From a virus, in the IMG/VR virus record IMGVR_UViG_3300042566_001512, positions 62,001 to 126,000 of that record: a DNA stretch of 64,000 bases, one strand, 5' to 3'. Numbering within the stretch: position 1 is the first letter of the stretch; each line of letters starts with the position of its first letter. Below the pieces are notes generated by a model, which saw only the letters and a list, made by a program, of their open reading frames with translations, was not told the origin of the DNA and ran no database searches. This document shows positions 2,466 through 62,500 of this stretch, in pieces. The translations under genes and the position numbers were made by a program.

Positions 2466-4109
2466 ATGCCTAATATTAGTTTACCACTAGAGGACCTACA
2501 AGACAGCGTAGAAAGGCCCGTTATCTTTTCAGTAGTTAGAGAATTGCTGGAAATAACTGAAATATCCGACAAAACAAACATTTCTTTTTACGACGACGAA
2601 GGTAAATCTGCACAGGTGGGCTCTCTATTAAACGACACTCCGAATAAAACAAACAAATGGCCATTTGACGAAAGGGTCAGAATAGAGGTACAGGAAGACT
2701 TTGACGAAGATTACGCATACAGAATACACACCAAAAAAGCAGAGCACATACCTGTGTTTAAGGACGAGGAACTGGGTGTAATAATAAGACCTATATATTC
2801 TCCTACTAAAGTAAATATAAATTTTACATACAGAGCCAGAGATAGGAATCAGGCAGTTAACTGGAGAAACAATATACGGGCAAAATCGGCAATGTTTAGA
2901 AATATAAATTTGCACGAAATAAGCTATCACTCTCACCTTCAGGAAGAGTTTATAATAATAGTAAAAGAACTGCACCGACTCAGAGAAAATATTGCAGGGT
3001 ACGGAGAAAGCTTTGATACTTACTTTGCCAGCCATTTAAGCGATAAGGCCAGCGTAAAGACTAACCTAGGTGGCAAATCTGTGTTATGGGGCGTAGACGA
3101 GAGACAGATAAGAGTACAGGGGCTGTTTGATTTTGCTGCTGCGCCAGAGAAGGGGGAGAAGAGCGATTCGGCAGATTCCTGGTCGATTTCCTTTTCTTAC
3201 AAATTTGAGTATCAAAAACCTATACTAATGAACATGGTCTACCCCATAGTGGTGCATAACCAGGTATTAAGCAGTAAATTCAGGCCCACCGAAAAGGTTT
3301 ACAGGTTAGAAGATCAAAATAGATCTTTTAGCATGTCCAACAGAGCATATAACGCTTTTGAGTCGGATACCTCTGTACTAACATACAAAGGAAACGACGG
3401 TATATCTATACCTTCTTTTGATGAGTTTGCACCAAAGACTATACTGCCCAGCACAGTAAACGTCATGACGTGCCTAGTAGTGATCGACACGTCAGAAACT
3501 GGCAATCCTAGAAAGCTAATGAATCTAGGTCAGCTAGGAGAAGTTAACTTAAACGGTACCATTCTTGATTTTATAAAGAGATCAGAATATCCTTTCTTGG
3601 GCAAAGATTTTTATTCCATATTCAGTCTATCTCTGTACCGACATGGGGCTCTTTGCGATACCGGCAGCCTTATGGTGGACGAGAACCTTGACATTTATAG
3701 CAATTTGGATTTAGATCTTAGAAGAACTTATAGAATTCGACTGGGATTAGTTACTAATTTTACTTATCTTAGAAAAGAGGCTCTGGATCGAATACGAGCA
3801 TTCAGTGCTACTGCGCCCAGCCTTGGTGATATATTAATAAACTGCATAGATGGCTGCATAGGAAAATACGCCAACCATCCGGACATCGGAAAGGCGGCAA
3901 TGAGTGACGTGGATAGAAAACTTGTATTGGCCAGCCCTATTGCCCAATACGACAGTAGATCAGACAGTACTTTGCCGGGGTATTTACCTAACCTAAAGCT
4001 GCCTGGCAGGAGTACACCTTCCGGACAAATACCCACCTACTACGGTAGAGGAGCAGTCATGTCTAACGTGCAATCCATGTTCGTTAGAGCTAATAGAAAA
4101 GGACATTGA
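2466..4109 (+). CDS. Probable virion structural protein (547 aa)
   Basis: Not recognised by family. It is the first of four closely packed genes (spacings of 2-4 bases) that end at 7430. They sit between internal-head-type genes, so a tail, baseplate or neck role is likely. The N-terminal 200 residues are charged, and the middle holds beta-like stretches (for example SWSISFSYKFEYQKP near residue 240). The C-terminal 60 residues are Pro/Gly/Ser-rich and low in complexity. Codon use is strikingly AT-rich, with frequent ATA, AGA and TTA, unlike the capsid gene. No enzyme motif was seen. Confidence 0.5.
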   Translation: MPNISLPLEDLQDSVERPVIFSVVRELLEITEISDKTNISFYDDEGKSAQVGSLLNDTPNKTNKWPFDERVRIEVQEDFDEDYAYRIHTKKAEHIPVFKDEELGVIIRPIYSPTKVNINFTYRARDRNQAVNWRNNIRAKSAMFRNINLHEISYHSHLQEEFIIIVKELHRLRENIAGYGESFDTYFASHLSDKASVKTNLGGKSVLWGVDERQIRVQGLFDFAAAPEKGEKSDSADSWSISFSYKFEYQKPILMNMVYPIVVHNQVLSSKFRPTEKVYRLEDQNRSFSMSNRAYNAFESDTSVLTYKGNDGISIPSFDEFAPKTILPSTVNVMTCLVVIDTSETGNPRKLMNLGQLGEVNLNGTILDFIKRSEYPFLGKDFYSIFSLSLYRHGALCDTGSLMVDENLDIYSNLDLDLRRTYRIRLGLVTNFTYLRKEALDRIRAFSATAPSLGDILINCIDGCIGKYANHPDIGKAAMSDVDRKLVLASPIAQYDSRSDSTLPGYLPNLKLPGRSTPSGQIPTYYGRGAVMSNVQSMFVRANRKGH

Positions 4110-4111
4110 AA

Positions 4112-5500
4112 ATGCCGCTTGTAACAAACGATCAACACAGCCCTAGTGGTATAACAAACGCATCGCCCGTGCCGATAGTGCCTGCGCCTATTGAGACGGT
4201 AAGAGTATCAACCGACGATATAAAAACGCCAGTTGTAGATACAAAATGGATACCGAGAAGCAGCTTGCTTACGCATATCGGCGGAAGTAGCTGGATAGTG
4301 GATTATTACTCTCAAGTACTAGACACGGACTCCAATTTGTCTGGTCAACAATACACTAAAAACCCAGTATATCAGTCATACAAAAAAATAAACAATCTAG
4401 AAATAAAGGTGCAGACGCCCCTTAGCACCGATCAAGACGACGCAAGCAAAGAAATGAACGTGACAGGTTCGGGGACTCTATATCCCTCTGTTATACCGAA
4501 TGAAGGAGATATGTTTGTCGCCGATATAGGTGAGGGTAAGAATGCCGTATTTAGAATTACGTCGACTAGAAAAAACAGTATATTTAAAGAAGCGTGTTAC
4601 GATATCTCCTATGTTCTAGACACTGATAATTTAGACAAACAGACCGATCTAGATCAAAAAACAATAATCACCTATTATTTCCATAAAGACTTTCTATACG
4701 CCGGAAGCAATCCATTGGTTATAAAGACCGATATGGATACACTTGTCAATATTAAGAAAGTATACGACATAATGCTGTATCAATATTTTAAAAGGTTCTA
4801 CAGCAATGAATTTAAGACACTGGTGGTCCCTTCACAACTAAAGCCAACTTACGACACATACCTATCGAAATACATATTGGACATGTTCTCCACCAGCGAG
4901 GCTAACGAGCTGGCATACATGAAGCTTCTGAATTTAGACGAAGACAGAGTAAGTCGGTGCGATAGTTTATGGGACGCCCTAAAATACAAAGACATTTCCT
5001 TACTCAATACTGCATTTAGAAAGATAGGGCTGGTTTCTTCTCTTACATTTAACAGAACCCCGACGTTTAACGGAGTAAGGTACAGCGGCATTGGCGCCGT
5101 GGTTTACCCAAAGGACCCCTACCTCACTGTTGATCACACTTACGTAAACAACGTAAAAGTAGTAGAAGCCGCAGGTCTTCAGCCATCTGCCGATTCCGAG
5201 TCTTCCAGTAACATTTTAGTCAGAGCAATAAACCTTAGAAACCTAAATAGTGATCTAGGCGATTCTCTTTATCCAGTAACAGTGGATGATTATTACGTAC
5301 TTAGTGAAAATTTTTATAACAATACGCAGCAGCAATCTACCCTGGAGACTGCCGTTAATGCTTACCTAAACAATAGTCAAGTTGACATATACCAACTATA
5401 TAACACAGCAAAGACGTTCCACTCGTGGGGTAGTCTAGAGCAGTTTTACTATGTGCCGATAATAATGACACTAATTAAGTCGGTTCTAAAAGGGATTTGA
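4112..5500 (+). CDS. Probable virion structural protein (462 aa)
   Basis: The start is taken at ATG 4112, which has AAAAGGA about 8 bases upstream, rather than the in-frame TTG at 4106. The first 50 residues are Pro/Thr-rich and probably flexible. The rest is a mixture of beta-like and helical segments with many Tyr and Asp. No catalytic motif is visible. Tight packing with the genes on both sides and the lack of a signal peptide or membrane segment point to a cytoplasmically assembled virion component. Tail tube, baseplate and neck are all possible. Confidence 0.5.
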   Translation: MPLVTNDQHSPSGITNASPVPIVPAPIETVRVSTDDIKTPVVDTKWIPRSSLLTHIGGSSWIVDYYSQVLDTDSNLSGQQYTKNPVYQSYKKINNLEIKVQTPLSTDQDDASKEMNVTGSGTLYPSVIPNEGDMFVADIGEGKNAVFRITSTRKNSIFKEACYDISYVLDTDNLDKQTDLDQKTIITYYFHKDFLYAGSNPLVIKTDMDTLVNIKKVYDIMLYQYFKRFYSNEFKTLVVPSQLKPTYDTYLSKYILDMFSTSEANELAYMKLLNLDEDRVSRCDSLWDALKYKDISLLNTAFRKIGLVSSLTFNRTPTFNGVRYSGIGAVVYPKDPYLTVDHTYVNNVKVVEAAGLQPSADSESSSNILVRAINLRNLNSDLGDSLYPVTVDDYYVLSENFYNNTQQQSTLETAVNAYLNNSQVDIYQLYNTAKTFHSWGSLEQFYYVPIIMTLIKSVLKGI

Positions 5501-22476: not shown

Positions 22477-22552
22477 GGGACGTTAGCTCAGCGGTTAGAG
22501 CAGAGGACTCATAATCCTTTGGTCAGGTGTTCAAATCACCTACGTCCCACCA
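22477..22552 (+). tRNA. tRNA with CAU anticodon, probably tRNA-Ile2 (AUA-decoding)
   Basis: The cloverleaf has acceptor GGGACGT/ACGTCCC, D-arm GCTC/GAGC, anticodon stem GAGGA/TCCTT with loop CTCATAA, T-arm AGGTG/CACCT, and an encoded CCA. A CAU anticodon may be Met or Ile2. The 8-base D loop AGCGGTTA, the weak closing G-T pair of the anticodon stem and the TTGGTC segment resemble E. coli tRNA-Ile2 more than elongator Met. A TilS-like gene lies 800 bases downstream and AUA is abundant in phage genes, both favouring Ile2. The Met alternative remains open. Confidence 0.9.
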
Positions 22553-23344: not shown

Positions 23345-23980
23345 ATGTCAAAAATTCATTTCCTGAGCAAACCCAACAAAGAAATCTATCTTGCGTTCTC
23401 CGGTGGCGTAGACTCGGTTGTTCTGCTACATACACTAATTCGTAGAAATTACAGTGTAGCACTACTTACCGTCGACCACGGTAATGAATTTGCTAAACAA
23501 GAAGTAGAGTTTTGTAAGAAGACCGCAAAGGAATTGGGATTAGAGTACAAGATATTTACTATTCCTGATTTTGATAAATCCACGTCACTTGAGGCGTTTT
23601 GGTCGAATCACAGGAACGACATTTTCCAAAAAATGGACAAGATGGTCGTGAGCGGGCATCATCTGAACGACGCCTGTGAATGGTACCTGATGTCCACTTT
23701 TCAAGGTACGCCAAAGCTTCTAGAGCACACCAACAGGAACGTGCACCGACCAATGATTACCAATACAAAGAAAGTCATCATTGAGTATGCTAATAAATAC
23801 AACTTGACGTACCTGACTGACCCCACTAACGCAGATACTACTTACAATCTAAGAAACAAAGTAAGAGCCGAGCTAATGGGAAGTGTAAAGAGTTGTTTTC
23901 CTGGTATTGAAACTACCGTGAAGAGACTCATCGTTAGAAAATATTTAAATAAAATGAAGTCGGTAGAAAATAGCATTTAA
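23345..23980 (+). CDS. tilS: TilS-like tRNA(Ile)-lysidine synthase, catalytic domain only
   Basis: An N-type ATP pyrophosphatase with PP-loop SGGVDS at 19-24. The TilS-specific elements are SGHHLNDACEWYLM (103-116), corresponding to HHxDDQAET in bacterial TilS, and TDPTNADTTYNLRNKVR (158-174), corresponding to the DPSN...RN.(I/L)R segment. TilS converts C34 of tRNA-Ile2(CAU) to lysidine so that it reads AUA. At 211 residues it lacks the C-terminal domains of the E. coli enzyme (432). Its proximity to a CAU tRNA gives a clear candidate substrate. Another PP-loop function is less likely given the specific motifs. Confidence 0.8.
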   Translation: MSKIHFLSKPNKEIYLAFSGGVDSVVLLHTLIRRNYSVALLTVDHGNEFAKQEVEFCKKTAKELGLEYKIFTIPDFDKSTSLEAFWSNHRNDIFQKMDKMVVSGHHLNDACEWYLMSTFQGTPKLLEHTNRNVHRPMITNTKKVIIEYANKYNLTYLTDPTNADTTYNLRNKVRAELMGSVKSCFPGIETTVKRLIVRKYLNKMKSVENSI

Positions 23981-24090: not shown

Positions 24091-24333
24091 ATGCTCACCA
24101 ATAAAGCGCGGTTAAGTAAGTCACAAGCGAGCTTTATAACCATTACTACGTGTAATCGATTGTATTGCATGAGCGCTTTTTGGATCGTGGACAAATACTG
24201 TTGTGACTATGAAGACGGCATCCCATTTTTAATGGGGCAGCAAGTAATAGTGGAAAATTGTGGAAGTGCTGTCAAAAAACAGTATATAGGGCAACCAATC
24301 CCAGTCCCCGGGTTTAACCGTGCTTTAAAATAA
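24091..24333 (+). CDS. Doubtful small ORF (80 aa)
   Basis: Cys-rich with five Cys residues and no recognisable domain. No ribosome binding site is apparent before the ATG. It stands alone between the TilS-like gene and a hairpin-rich non-coding stretch, so it may not be translated. Confidence 0.3.
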   Translation: MLTNKARLSKSQASFITITTCNRLYCMSAFWIVDKYCCDYEDGIPFLMGQQVIVENCGSAVKKQYIGQPIPVPGFNRALK

Positions 24334-24487
24334 AAAGCTAACTGGGGAACAGCTTGCTGTGTGAATTCTCCTAAAATTGATATGCTAAAAACGTATCAAG
24401 CCAAATACAAAGCAATTTGTAGAGGTAGTGAAATACAATAGGAGAGACCCATCTATACGTAACTAAGATCGGGTTGTAAGTATTTCA

Positions 24488-24562
24488 AGTCATGCTAGCA
24501 TGACTGTCCCTCTAGTGATAGAGGGTATCCTAATACATATTTAGAAAAGTATGTATTAGGAT
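24488..24562. repeat. Three consecutive stem-loops
   Basis: Palindrome AGTCATGCTAGCATGACT (24488-24505), stem CCCTCTA-GTGA-TAGAGGG (24508-24525), and stem CCTAATACATA / TATGTATTAGG (24529-24560) lie in series, ending 8 bases before a tRNA half. The array could be a small structured RNA or multiple terminators. Confidence 0.6.
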
Positions 24563-24569
24563 GCTTTGT

Positions 24570-24604
24570 GCGGGGGTGGTGAAATTGGTAGACACAACCT
24601 CACT
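24570..24604 (+). pseudogene. 5' half of a disrupted tRNA-Leu-like gene
   Basis: GCGGGGG acceptor strand, TG, then a Leu/Ser-type D arm GTGAAATTGGTAGACAC and part of the anticodon arm (ACCTC ACT). The matching acceptor strand TCCCCGC plus A-CCA is found only at 25618-25628. The 970 bases in between hold an HNH nuclease gene and a complete split tRNA. The anticodon stem strands do not pair, so the gene is probably broken. Confidence 0.55.
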
Positions 24605-24674
24605 ATTTCTTTTTCTATTTGATTTCAATCGCTTATCACTATAATGGTAGTATAAAATAGTGATTGGAGTTAAT

Positions 24675-25226
24675 ATGAAAAATGAATTACAAGAGAAGTG
24701 TAGTGTAAACGATAATGTTGCTTTAGATAAGAAAACTCTTCTGGGGTTATATCCAGAATACACATCTGTTCTTGGTCCCTACTTTAGACCGGACGGAAGA
24801 CAACACGTTATTTTAAATAATGCTAAAGCACCTAAAGGCACTAAAGATAAAACAAAAACTATATCTTACCCTAAGGCACTTAAAGAAGTTGAGTTAAAAG
24901 AAAAATTAAAACCTGATGAAACTGTAGATCATCATGATAGAGATTTTACTAATGACAAATTAAGTAATCTTAAGGTAAAATCTAAATCAATTCACGCGTC
25001 GCAGGATGCGCTTAGAGTTACTGTAAAGCCTATTAATTGTCCAGAATGTTCAAACCTTTTTACGCCTAACGTAAATCAAAGAAACAAACAACATGCCGGT
25101 AAAGGACAAGCTGGTCCTTTTTGTAGTAAAGTGTGTGTCGGTAAATACGGCGCAAGAGTACGAAATGAAGGCGTTATCTTAGAGAGAACGTCATTAGAAA
25201 AAACATATTATCGCATAGATAAGTAA
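24675..25226 (+). CDS. HNH homing-type endonuclease (183 aa)
   Basis: ATG 24675, with GGAG 6 bases upstream, is used rather than an in-frame GTG at 24660. The HNH signature is in TVDHHDRDFTNDKLSNLKV (about residues 83-101), with the His pair, central Asn and distal NLKV. A zinc ribbon follows with CPEC (about 121-124) and FCSKVC (about 149-154). The RPDGRQHVILNN stretch near residue 40 resembles the N-terminal part of phage homing HNH proteins. It lies between a tRNA half and an intron-bearing tRNA gene that starts 9 bases after its stop, consistent with a mobile endonuclease that spreads with, or next to, the intron. Confidence 0.8.
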   Translation: MKNELQEKCSVNDNVALDKKTLLGLYPEYTSVLGPYFRPDGRQHVILNNAKAPKGTKDKTKTISYPKALKEVELKEKLKPDETVDHHDRDFTNDKLSNLKVKSKSIHASQDALRVTVKPINCPECSNLFTPNVNQRNKQHAGKGQAGPFCSKVCVGKYGARVRNEGVILERTSLEKTYYRIDK

Positions 25227-25234
25227 TAAGCTAT

Positions 25235-25552
25235 CCGACTGTGACGGAACTGGTATACGTAGCAGACTTTGACTAATTTGAGTGCCTTTGAGGAAACTCT
25301 TAGAGTAGAACGCTTCAAATTCGGTGGAACTCCTACTTAACTTATGTTAAGGGACAATACCGAGCCAAGCTTTAGTTGTTAATAAACAACTATCGAAGGT
25401 GTAGAGACTAGACGGGGCGAACCTAATACAAAAGTAATGGTTAAGGTATAGTCCAGACTACAACATTTTTAAAATGGCTTAGGTAACTAAGAGTAGTAAG
25501 AAAATCTGCCGAAGGAAACTTCATGTGGGTTCAAATCCCACCAGTCGGACCA
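25235..25552 (+). tRNA. tRNA-Leu(UAA), interrupted by a group I intron
   Basis: Exons are 25235-25269 and 25501-25552. The acceptor CCGACTG pairs exactly with CAGTCGG before A-CCA. The anticodon stem GCAGA/TCTGC closes loop CT-TAA-AA only after splicing. There is a long variable arm CGAAGGAAACTTC and T-arm GTGGG/CCCAC. UAA reads UUA (and UUG). The joined tRNA is 87 nt, normal for class II. The 5' exon ends in U34 and the last intron base is G, as group I splicing requires. Confidence 0.88.
25270..25500 (+). ncRNA. Group I self-splicing intron in tRNA-Leu(UAA)
   Basis: About 231 nt, ending in G. The core shows P7-type strands GTAGAGACTAGACGG (about 25401-25415) and AAGGTATAGTCC (about 25443-25454), the familiar group I pairing around AGACTA / TAGTCC. 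It is inserted between anticodon bases U34 and A35, the same site as the classic cyanobacterial and plastid tRNA-Leu(UAA) intron. It carries no ORF of its own. Confidence 0.85.
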
Positions 25553-25574
25553 ATATATTAAGAAAACAAAACAT

Positions 25575-25628
25575 AAAATCTGTCGGAGAGCAATCTCCAT
25601 ACGGGTTCGATCCCCGTTCCCCGCACCA
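25575..25628 (+). pseudogene. 3' half of the disrupted tRNA-Leu-like gene
   Basis: AAAATCTGTC, variable arm GGAGA-GCAA-TCTCC, T-arm ACGGG-TTCGATC-CCCGT, then TCCCCGC-A-CCA. The acceptor strand pairs with GCGGGGG at 24570 (six Watson-Crick pairs and one G-T). Its anticodon-arm strand resembles the 3' exon of the neighbouring tRNA-Leu(UAA). Confidence 0.55.
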
Positions 25629-60403: not shown

Positions 60404-62500
60404 ATGATTAACACCAACCAACAATTCCAAGCACTTCCGCATAGCCCCGTACAGCCACAGTATCAGTTTGTTCAAATAAATGTAAACAACTGTCCAGTAA
60501 ACTTGGCGCCCCTGCAAACACAGATTCATCCCGGCCTGGTAAACTATCTTGTCCCTATCGCCGTAACGTGTATCAATGAATTGCAGAATAAGGCCACACA
60601 GAACAGCCTTCGGTTGTTTCTGTTTAATCAGATGGCCGCAAACACTTTCAATAACCAGCTGTTTTTGCAGCTAATGAAATCGGTGTTAGAGTTGGTCGAA
60701 TGCACGGCCGAGCAGGGAGTTCAGCTAGAGAGCGCAATTGAGTACTCGGTGGAAATGACCATTCAGTTGTATGCGCTCAATAACTTGTATACCTACCCAT
60801 CGCTCAACCAGTATGTAGACCCCAACACACAGGCAGGCCTTCAACGTCTTCAGAAAAAGCAGTCTGAGGTGCTTTATGTTCTTAGTCAACACCAGCAGCA
60901 GAAAGCAATGCGTCAACAGCAGATGAGCCCATACGGGTTTCAGCGACCGCAAATGCTTCAGCAAAATGGTATCAGCGACGCTTTTCAACAGCAAAGCAAT
61001 CAATCGTGGCAGACAAAGAGCACGGGTCTATTCTCCTCGCCCATTCAAACTCCAGCCGTCAGTGAGCCTCAAAACGGGACAATGGTAGACGGGTGGGCCG
61101 CTGCAGCTCAGAATTCTCTAAGTCAGATCAACCAGCAGTCACTACCCACCTTGCAGCAGGCCTACCCTTTTCATCAAGAACAAACGCCTTTTAAGTTCAA
61201 CACATCAAATAACGCAGTGCCTGCCGCTCAAGCCGAATCTGCTAAGGTAAACTCTAACCCAGTTCATCAGCAATATGAGAAGTTTTACCATCATCCCGAT
61301 GGCAAACTGATGGTAAAGCATGGAGATCCTGGGGTAAAGTTTAAAATGACAAAGAAGTGGCCGTTTGCACCCAGCCCATCAAACCTAGCCGACGTTTATT
61401 ACGTACTCCACGAAGACGGATCCATGGAGCCGATTATTAAGAAACTCACAAAGGAACAGCAAATGGAAAAATCTCGACATTATGCAATTACAAGCACTCC
61501 CACTGCCCACAGTAAGATCTGGGGTAGCGTCTTGGCCCACGGCGCCGCTGAGCGCCGAGAGGAAGCCGACAACATGTTCGAATCTGGAGAATTTGAAAAA
61601 GGCATTAAGACTGATCTAGATTTCAAGAAATCATCAGTAAATAAGGACGAAATCGTGAAAGACGAAGTGTTTGTTGCCGTTATTTCGGAAGGGGACGCGT
61701 GGAGTCAGACTGACATTAGCCTATCTATTGCCGACCGCGACGATAAGAAATGTACGGCATACGTCAAACCCGTACTTCGTGTTAAGCCAATCGTTTCAAA
61801 GTGCGACACAAAAGATCTAGTGGACAGCCTGAAGGAATGCACCACTTTAGAGCAATGCGCCAGTAAACTAAAAGCGGAAAACTACAGCATAAAGAGTCTC
61901 TCTGACGTGAATCAGCGTCGTCAGCGGCAAACCGTTTTTGGTAAAATTAACAGAACTCTCACGGAGTCGCTTAATCATTATCTCAAATATAAACTGGCCC
62001 TTGGCGGCGTACAAGTAGGGTCGTTTGAAGACGATGGCGGAGAGCTAATTCAGTATTTGAAAGATGAATATCCTGAGCAGTATGCTGCGGCTCTTTCTGA
62101 TAATCAGGCCGTCATTATCAGGACGGTGCTTTCTACCACGTCCGACGACTTTGTTGGATCCGAGTTTGAAGAGTCGCTAAAAGAACAGTATCTATCCGAA
62201 CTGGATATCGGTCAGAACAATTCTCTTTTCTTGTATAGAAAAGAGTTCTTTATGTCCATCAACATGTTTTCAGCGGAGATAAATGAACACGTAGATGATC
62301 AGGCCGATACGATTAGCGTATTCTCTGATAGCTTCCCTCGATTGTATTCTCTGTGTGAACATCTATCATCGTGTGCAAAATCCCTTGATGAGAACGAGGA
62401 TTACGTATATAGCTACTACATGAAAACCCTGGACGACGTGGTGTACGTTGTAAATAGAAGTGCACTTCGCCCAACCACTTTCATTGTTGGACTAAAGTGA
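60404..62500 (+). CDS. Unknown Gln-rich protein (698 aa)
   Basis: Starts 7 bases after the previous stop. Residues 1-280 are Gln/Asn/Pro-rich with runs of QQ and low complexity; 130-260 are probably disordered. Residues 300-698 are more globular (KHGDPGVKFKMTKKWPFAPSP, VVISEGDAWSQTDISLSIADRDDKKC-like stretch). No enzyme motif. The position after the polymerase beta fragment and capsid suggests a structural or transcription-linked role. Ends with a CATA/TATG hairpin. Confidence 0.5.
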   Translation: MINTNQQFQALPHSPVQPQYQFVQINVNNCPVNLAPLQTQIHPGLVNYLVPIAVTCINELQNKATQNSLRLFLFNQMAANTFNNQLFLQLMKSVLELVECTAEQGVQLESAIEYSVEMTIQLYALNNLYTYPSLNQYVDPNTQAGLQRLQKKQSEVLYVLSQHQQQKAMRQQQMSPYGFQRPQMLQQNGISDAFQQQSNQSWQTKSTGLFSSPIQTPAVSEPQNGTMVDGWAAAAQNSLSQINQQSLPTLQQAYPFHQEQTPFKFNTSNNAVPAAQAESAKVNSNPVHQQYEKFYHHPDGKLMVKHGDPGVKFKMTKKWPFAPSPSNLADVYYVLHEDGSMEPIIKKLTKEQQMEKSRHYAITSTPTAHSKIWGSVLAHGAAERREEADNMFESGEFEKGIKTDLDFKKSSVNKDEIVKDEVFVAVISEGDAWSQTDISLSIADRDDKKCTAYVKPVLRVKPIVSKCDTKDLVDSLKECTTLEQCASKLKAENYSIKSLSDVNQRRQRQTVFGKINRTLTESLNHYLKYKLALGGVQVGSFEDDGGELIQYLKDEYPEQYAAALSDNQAVIIRTVLSTTSDDFVGSEFEESLKEQYLSELDIGQNNSLFLYRKEFFMSINMFSAEINEHVDDQADTISVFSDSFPRLYSLCEHLSSCAKSLDENEDYVYSYYMKTLDDVVYVVNRSALRPTTFIVGLK

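Follow-up and report, generated by a model that had tools for sequence, protein, structure and literature searches.

Why a phage tRNA gene should carry an intron in its anticodon, and whether that intron has anything to do with the genes around it, is the question raised by the tRNA-Leu(UAA) gene at positions 25,235–25,552 of the window, by which we mean the whole 64,000-nt stretch of DNA analyzed here (positions 62,001–126,000 of IMG/VR record IMGVR_UViG_3300042566_001512). The gene comprises a 5′ exon ending at U34 (25,235–25,269), a 231-nt intron that lacks an open reading frame (ORF) and ends in G (25,270–25,500) and a 3′ exon running from A35 to the CCA (25,501–25,552), all on the + strand. 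With introns allowed, ARAGORN called a single tRNA-Leu(taa) with 87 exon nucleotides and the intron between nucleotides 35 and 36, which corresponds to U34 and A35; it recognized the spliced exons as well and made no tRNA call at 25,235–25,552 without the intron option. Moving the 5′ intron boundary by −2, −1, +1 or +2 nt abolished the tRNA-Leu(UAA), and the minimum free energy z-score of the entire intron-bearing gene was −4.07. The initial annotation had described a 231-nt intron ending in G between U34 and A35 of an otherwise perfect 87-nt tRNA-Leu(UAA), and all of this proved exact to the nucleotide. It had also assigned the DNA to a phage, which agrees with a phiKZ-like major head protein, 40% identical to its counterpart in Burkholderia phage FLC9 and matching those of many such phages. 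Its term 'ORF-less' is right for the intron itself, but an HNH endonuclease gene 8 nt upstream of the tRNA and a second, split tRNA-Leu gene had been overlooked.

Judged by its sequence and predicted fold, the intron almost certainly belongs to group I and would be expected to splice. An independent covariance model, trained on 12 other tRNA-Leu introns with the window intron and its nearest relative (L002) left out, gave the window intron 170.4 bits (E = 1.7e-45 in a search of 234 kb). The Rfam group I model (RF00028) missed it in a 64-kb scan at the gathering threshold; applied to 0.9 kb around the intron, the same model gave 51.3 bits (E = 5.8e-12), just over its gathering score of 50. We then aligned 26 tRNA-Leu(UAA) introns located at U34/A35, 16 of them phage-side (including the window intron) and 10 from bacterial genomes. 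RNAalifold returned 45 pairs, with compensatory changes in 34, and addition of P1 and the P7 pseudoknot brought the structure to 53 pairs, with 96.4% of cells paired and compensatory changes in 35 pairs; none of 500 shuffles reached as high, and slid versions of the structure came nowhere near. These changes back P3, P4, P6, P7, P8 and P9. P1 of the window intron is ACUU/GAGU, in which the U at the 5′ splice site pairs with a G of the guide sequence, and this terminal U·G is present in all 26 introns. P7, GACUA/UAGUC in the window, is likewise complementary in 26 of 26, its variable pair being A-U, U-A, C-G or G-C. The initial annotation had proposed group I from a P7-like pairing and suggested a covariance model search; both the pairing and the class were borne out.

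The endonuclease gene overlooked earlier is free-standing, encodes 183 amino acids (24,675–25,226, + strand) and stops 8 nt before the tRNA. It matches PHROG 14913 (HNH endonuclease; E = 5.5e-16) over residues 43–163 of a 188-residue reading, and its match to Pfam HNH_3 fell below the cut-off (E = 0.0049). Together, the endonuclease gene and the intron-bearing tRNA gene are enclosed by another tRNA-Leu(UAA) gene, one half of which lies on each side. The outer 5′ part (24,570–24,598, + strand) covers about positions 1–28, begins with the acceptor strand GCGGGGG and is matched by phage DNA annotated as tRNA-Leu; the outer 3′ part (25,574–25,628, + strand) runs from the U34/A35 intron site to the CCA, retains its T-loop and pairs 7/7 through its acceptor with 24,570–24,576. 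About five anticodon-arm nucleotides (29–33) are absent from the outer gene. Its halves match both ends of a single intact tRNA-Leu in Klebsiella phage KpCHEMY26, and intact tRNA-Leu(UAA) 5′ parts of the outer kind were present in five of five IMG/VR matches to a search pattern that required them, one of the five (L273) being without a clear 3′ half. Rfam did not recognize the outer 5′ half and gave a weak tRNA-Sec match alone for the 3′ half (E = 0.85). We consider it likely that the enclosed genes sit as a cassette inside a broken tRNA-Leu gene. When relatives were sought in IMG/VR by means of the flanking tilS and helicase genes, none with an empty site was found. A reading of the halves as an attachment site was dropped, since no integrase was found among the subset of proteins examined.

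Several other features of this region were recorded. The endonuclease leader contains a 9-bp inverted repeat, TCACTATTT/AAATAGTGA, read by eye (24,610–24,663, + strand). Directly upstream of the outer tRNA half, positions 24,320–24,570 hold a second, divergent group I-like RNA, which scored 21.5 bits on a model from which the window was left out (E = 4.7e-4 in a 234-kb search), has a fold z-score of −7.2 and includes an 8-bp P7-like pseudoknot, equally long in 32 of 20,000 shuffles; it had no Rfam match. A tilS gene lies at 23,345–23,980 (TIGR02432, above cut-off), with similar genes in large Pseudomonas phages, and near it is a CAU-anticodon tRNA (22,477–22,552) that in our reading resembles tRNA-Ile2, the substrate of TilS.

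We propose that the free-standing HNH endonuclease gene and the intron-bearing tRNA-Leu(UAA) gene form a mobile cassette. The group I intron would splice from the transcript to leave a normal tRNA-Leu(UAA), while the endonuclease would cut intronless tRNA-Leu(UAA) genes, its presumed target, in the anticodon arm; by splitting the cut site in the cassette's own tRNA, the intron would protect that copy. On entry, the cassette would fill the break made in a resident copy of tRNA-Leu(UAA); the resident gene would remain as two dead halves (24,570–24,598 and 25,574–25,628) that represent the scar, and the incoming copy would take over its tRNA function. As a whole explanation, a collaborative-homing cassette within a broken resident tRNA-Leu(UAA) gene has in our estimate a probability of roughly 0.6; taken as a claim of its own, that the endonuclease and the intron act together has about an even chance. 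Collaboration is favored because the same layout recurs at a second locus with an unrelated intron, because related HNH genes occur at tRNAs and because endonuclease genes are enriched at intron loci.

The second locus (L015) holds the sole relative of the endonuclease found in IMG/VR, at 64% identity. Here a truncated tRNA-Leu 5′ part is fused to the endonuclease gene, followed by an intron-bearing tRNA-Leu(UAA), a tRNA 3′ end and tRNA-Arg(UCU). The intron belongs to group I (Rfam, 62.4 bits), lies at 31/32 by sequence reading and was unrelated to the window intron in a quick tree. Although the acceptor of the tRNA 3′ end pairs 7/7 with the 5′ part of the same locus, this 3′ half is less certain because its T-stem is non-complementary and it is preceded by the remains of another tRNA. 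An automatic test for the layout gave no positive among 120 viral loci with an intronless tRNA-Leu(UAA) or among 29 further phage loci with a tRNA-Leu intron. The same L015 cluster also includes, at 4,072–4,737, another tRNA 5′ half followed by an HNH-like gene.

To survey the family, we used the endonuclease in a tblastn search that yielded 32 phage records, of which 15 were read; with the window and L015 these made 17 HNH genes, the near-copy L144 being left out. In 13 of the 17, ARAGORN placed a tRNA that overlapped the 3′ end of the HNH gene or lay no more than about 20 nt from it (tRNA-Leu(UAA) in seven), and a tRNA 5′ fragment, identified by eye, stood directly upstream of or ran into the HNH start in ten. 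At some of the other HNH loci the 5′ fragment occurs alone, without a 3′ half to match. HNH relatives (38–42% identical) adjoin an intronless tRNA-Leu(UAA) in Seunavirus and in two Klebsiella phages, and therefore the partnership needs no intron; more generally, the survey indicates that both the tRNA linkage and the 5′ fragment are independent of the intron. In phage PVP-SE1 (L136, 1,460–1,575) we also observed a tRNA-like sequence whose T-arm is preceded by an unusual insert.

We next compared intron-bearing with intronless loci. We classed as homing-endonuclease-type any ORF that matched a homing endonuclease family, whether HNH, GIY-YIG or another. Such an ORF adjoined the tRNA at 12 of 24 distinct phage loci with a tRNA-Leu(UAA) intron, where 29 of 45 candidate ORFs were scanned and one partial match 0.4 kb away at L003 was counted, versus 1 of 16 intronless control loci, where the scan covered all 39 ORFs (Fisher P = 0.0038, with controls unmatched for phage type). 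With five integrase-adjacent controls and two ORF-free ones removed, the control figure was 1 of 9 (P = 0.047). In the huge phage LR756511 (L005), an HNH ORF lies within the tRNA-Leu(UAA) intron itself and is 48% identical to a free-standing HNH at L086 (E = 7e-55).

The same survey provides an argument for the most serious alternative, in which an ordinary phage tRNA intron happens to have an unrelated, selfish HNH gene as its neighbor and either insertion of that gene or plain recombination disrupted the outer tRNA. In this reading tRNA clusters simply gather endonuclease genes; HNH relatives do occur beside intronless tRNAs of several kinds, and many of them have an upstream tRNA 5′ fragment without any intron. 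Against this account, the related endonucleases of two phages accompany introns that are unrelated and interrupt the anticodon arm of the same tRNA at different points, and endonuclease genes are commoner beside intron-bearing than beside intronless tRNA-Leu genes. We regard it as a real possibility, if a distinctly less probable one than the collaborative cassette.

The initial annotation had linked the intron to the well-known tRNA-Leu intron of cyanobacteria and plastids, which occupies the same tRNA at the same U34/A35 site. That part stands; the site itself, however, is widespread. A core-pattern scan of IMG/VR gave at least 120 viral loci, with the group I core inside an ARAGORN-called tRNA in 50 of 120 among the matches listed, and a scan of one-per-species genomes gave at least 117 loci, 102 of 117 inside tRNAs among the matches listed. 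ARAGORN anticodon names are unreliable at some of these loci, and those labeled 'Tyr-ata' were Leu(UAA) by inspection. Strict tRNA-Leu(UAA) introns numbered at least 23 on the phage side (window, L002 and L003 included) and at least 29 in bacteria, one of which (L223) was later removed because its boundary was unsure; relaxing one pair raised the number of tRNA-Leu(UAA) introns to at least 65. The U34/A35 site is also occupied in Proteobacteria, Acidobacteriota, Bacteroidota and others, as well as in many phages, and is therefore not special to cyanobacteria.

Phylogeny of the intron core, which the initial annotation had suggested, placed the window intron among phages. In a quick tree of 146 rows it fell within a starred set of 18 phage rows. 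In a more careful tree of 93 rows, whose bootstrap had not settled and whose sample leaves out plastid introns, it paired with L002 from the 735-kb phage LR756501 (support 100/94) inside a phage-only set of 15 rows (90/99), and the cyanobacterial tRNA-Leu introns lay beyond a 100/100 branch of length 0.56. Approximately unbiased (AU) tests gave P = 0.117 for a grouping of the window intron with four cyanobacterial introns, P = 0.11 for all phage tRNA-Leu introns together and P = 0.035 for all tRNA-Leu introns together, and a single origin for all tRNA-Leu introns is disfavored on the last of these values. A cyanobacterial source of the window intron also appears disfavored. Transfer of the cyanobacterial or plastid intron into the phage would account for the shared tRNA, site and general fold, including the P3–P9 core and the P1 U·G at the splice site, and is compatible with the AU value of 0.117, but the window intron differs in the P7 variable pair and one P1 pair, occupies another branch of the tree, is phage-borne and resides within an endonuclease cassette. 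We judge such a transfer very improbable.

About equally improbable is an assembly artifact fusing two tRNA loci: the record is an IMG/VR virus contig from a metagenome, known from a single assembly, but the independent L015 record has the same layout, and tRNA-Leu is followed by tRNA-Arg(UCU) in both. That the outer halves work as a split tRNA, brought together in trans or by excision of the 1 kb between them, is hardly credible and was dropped, because, despite their 7/7 acceptor pairing, positions of about 29–33 are absent, the junctions show nothing resembling a splice site and ARAGORN built no tRNA from the halves joined by 0–9 N. The same phage record contains six more group I introns (L013, 290–6,698; L008, 6,511–6,836), of which five lie among RNA polymerase beta gene pieces and the sixth separates pieces of a DNA polymerase gene; spread from these to the tRNA was also dropped as scarcely plausible, since in the quick tree a 100% branch of length 0.79 sets the six, as a single set, apart from the tRNA introns.

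The cassette we favor has a partial precedent in cyanophage S-PM2, where the free-standing endonuclease F-CphI attacks intronless psbA alleles and the psbA intron protects its own, an arrangement known as collaborative homing (PMC6083498, as far as the accessible text describes it). There, as in the window, a free-standing endonuclease gene adjoins an intron that would block self-cleavage; the window differs in that the host gene is a tRNA, the endonuclease is of HNH rather than Endo VII type, the resident gene is left in two halves and the case is known from sequence alone. SegB of T-even phages is also a free-standing homing endonuclease located in a phage tRNA cluster, and it cuts tRNA-containing DNA, but it belongs to the GIY-YIG family and neither an intron nor a split tRNA figures in the portion of its account available to us (PMC13096335). 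Closest in the kind of gene interrupted are the Lak megaphages, whose tRNA introns were reported in 2019 by Devoto et al. as new and 'enigmatic' after Rfam had been tried, together with a tRNA intron possibly encoding a tRNA itself (PMC6784885). Unlike the introns described here, they were neither called group I nor tied to endonucleases in the accessible parts of that study and of Crisci et al. (2021; PMC8346664).

At least one Lak intron does match group I: on the group I model, the Lak-C1 tRNA-Leu(UAA) intron scored 53.5 bits, with a second match upstream at 33.4 bits, in a search that gave a weak match (E = 0.06) at 1 of 26 intronless control loci. The Lak-C1 gene (L004, 1,507–2,069) appears to be interrupted twice by group I introns, in the D-loop region and again at U34/A35. 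Rfam at E = 0.01 reported no group I intron at L002–L005, although our own covariance models find them there, and this may explain the earlier silence on group I.

A 2014 review, in the text accessible to us, stated that all phage introns then seen were in protein-coding genes, despite the many phage tRNA genes (PMC3984707). Our literature search, with most subscription journals outside its reach, found no description of group I introns in phage tRNA-Leu and none of tRNA halves flanking an endonuclease gene. As far as these searches show, the group I assignment of phage tRNA-Leu introns, their phage lineage and the endonuclease–tRNA cassette in a split tRNA-Leu are new. Rfam misses may account for phage tRNA introns having been called enigmatic. 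More tentatively, and with the odds somewhat against it, endonuclease–tRNA cassettes may remodel phage tRNA clusters, with the HNH enzyme destroying a resident tRNA gene and the cassette supplying an intron-shielded replacement of the same kind, so that the intron would serve as the immunity device of a tRNA-replacing gene drive. The cassette reading would offer a testable account of why phage tRNA introns persist and how phage tRNA genes get swapped.
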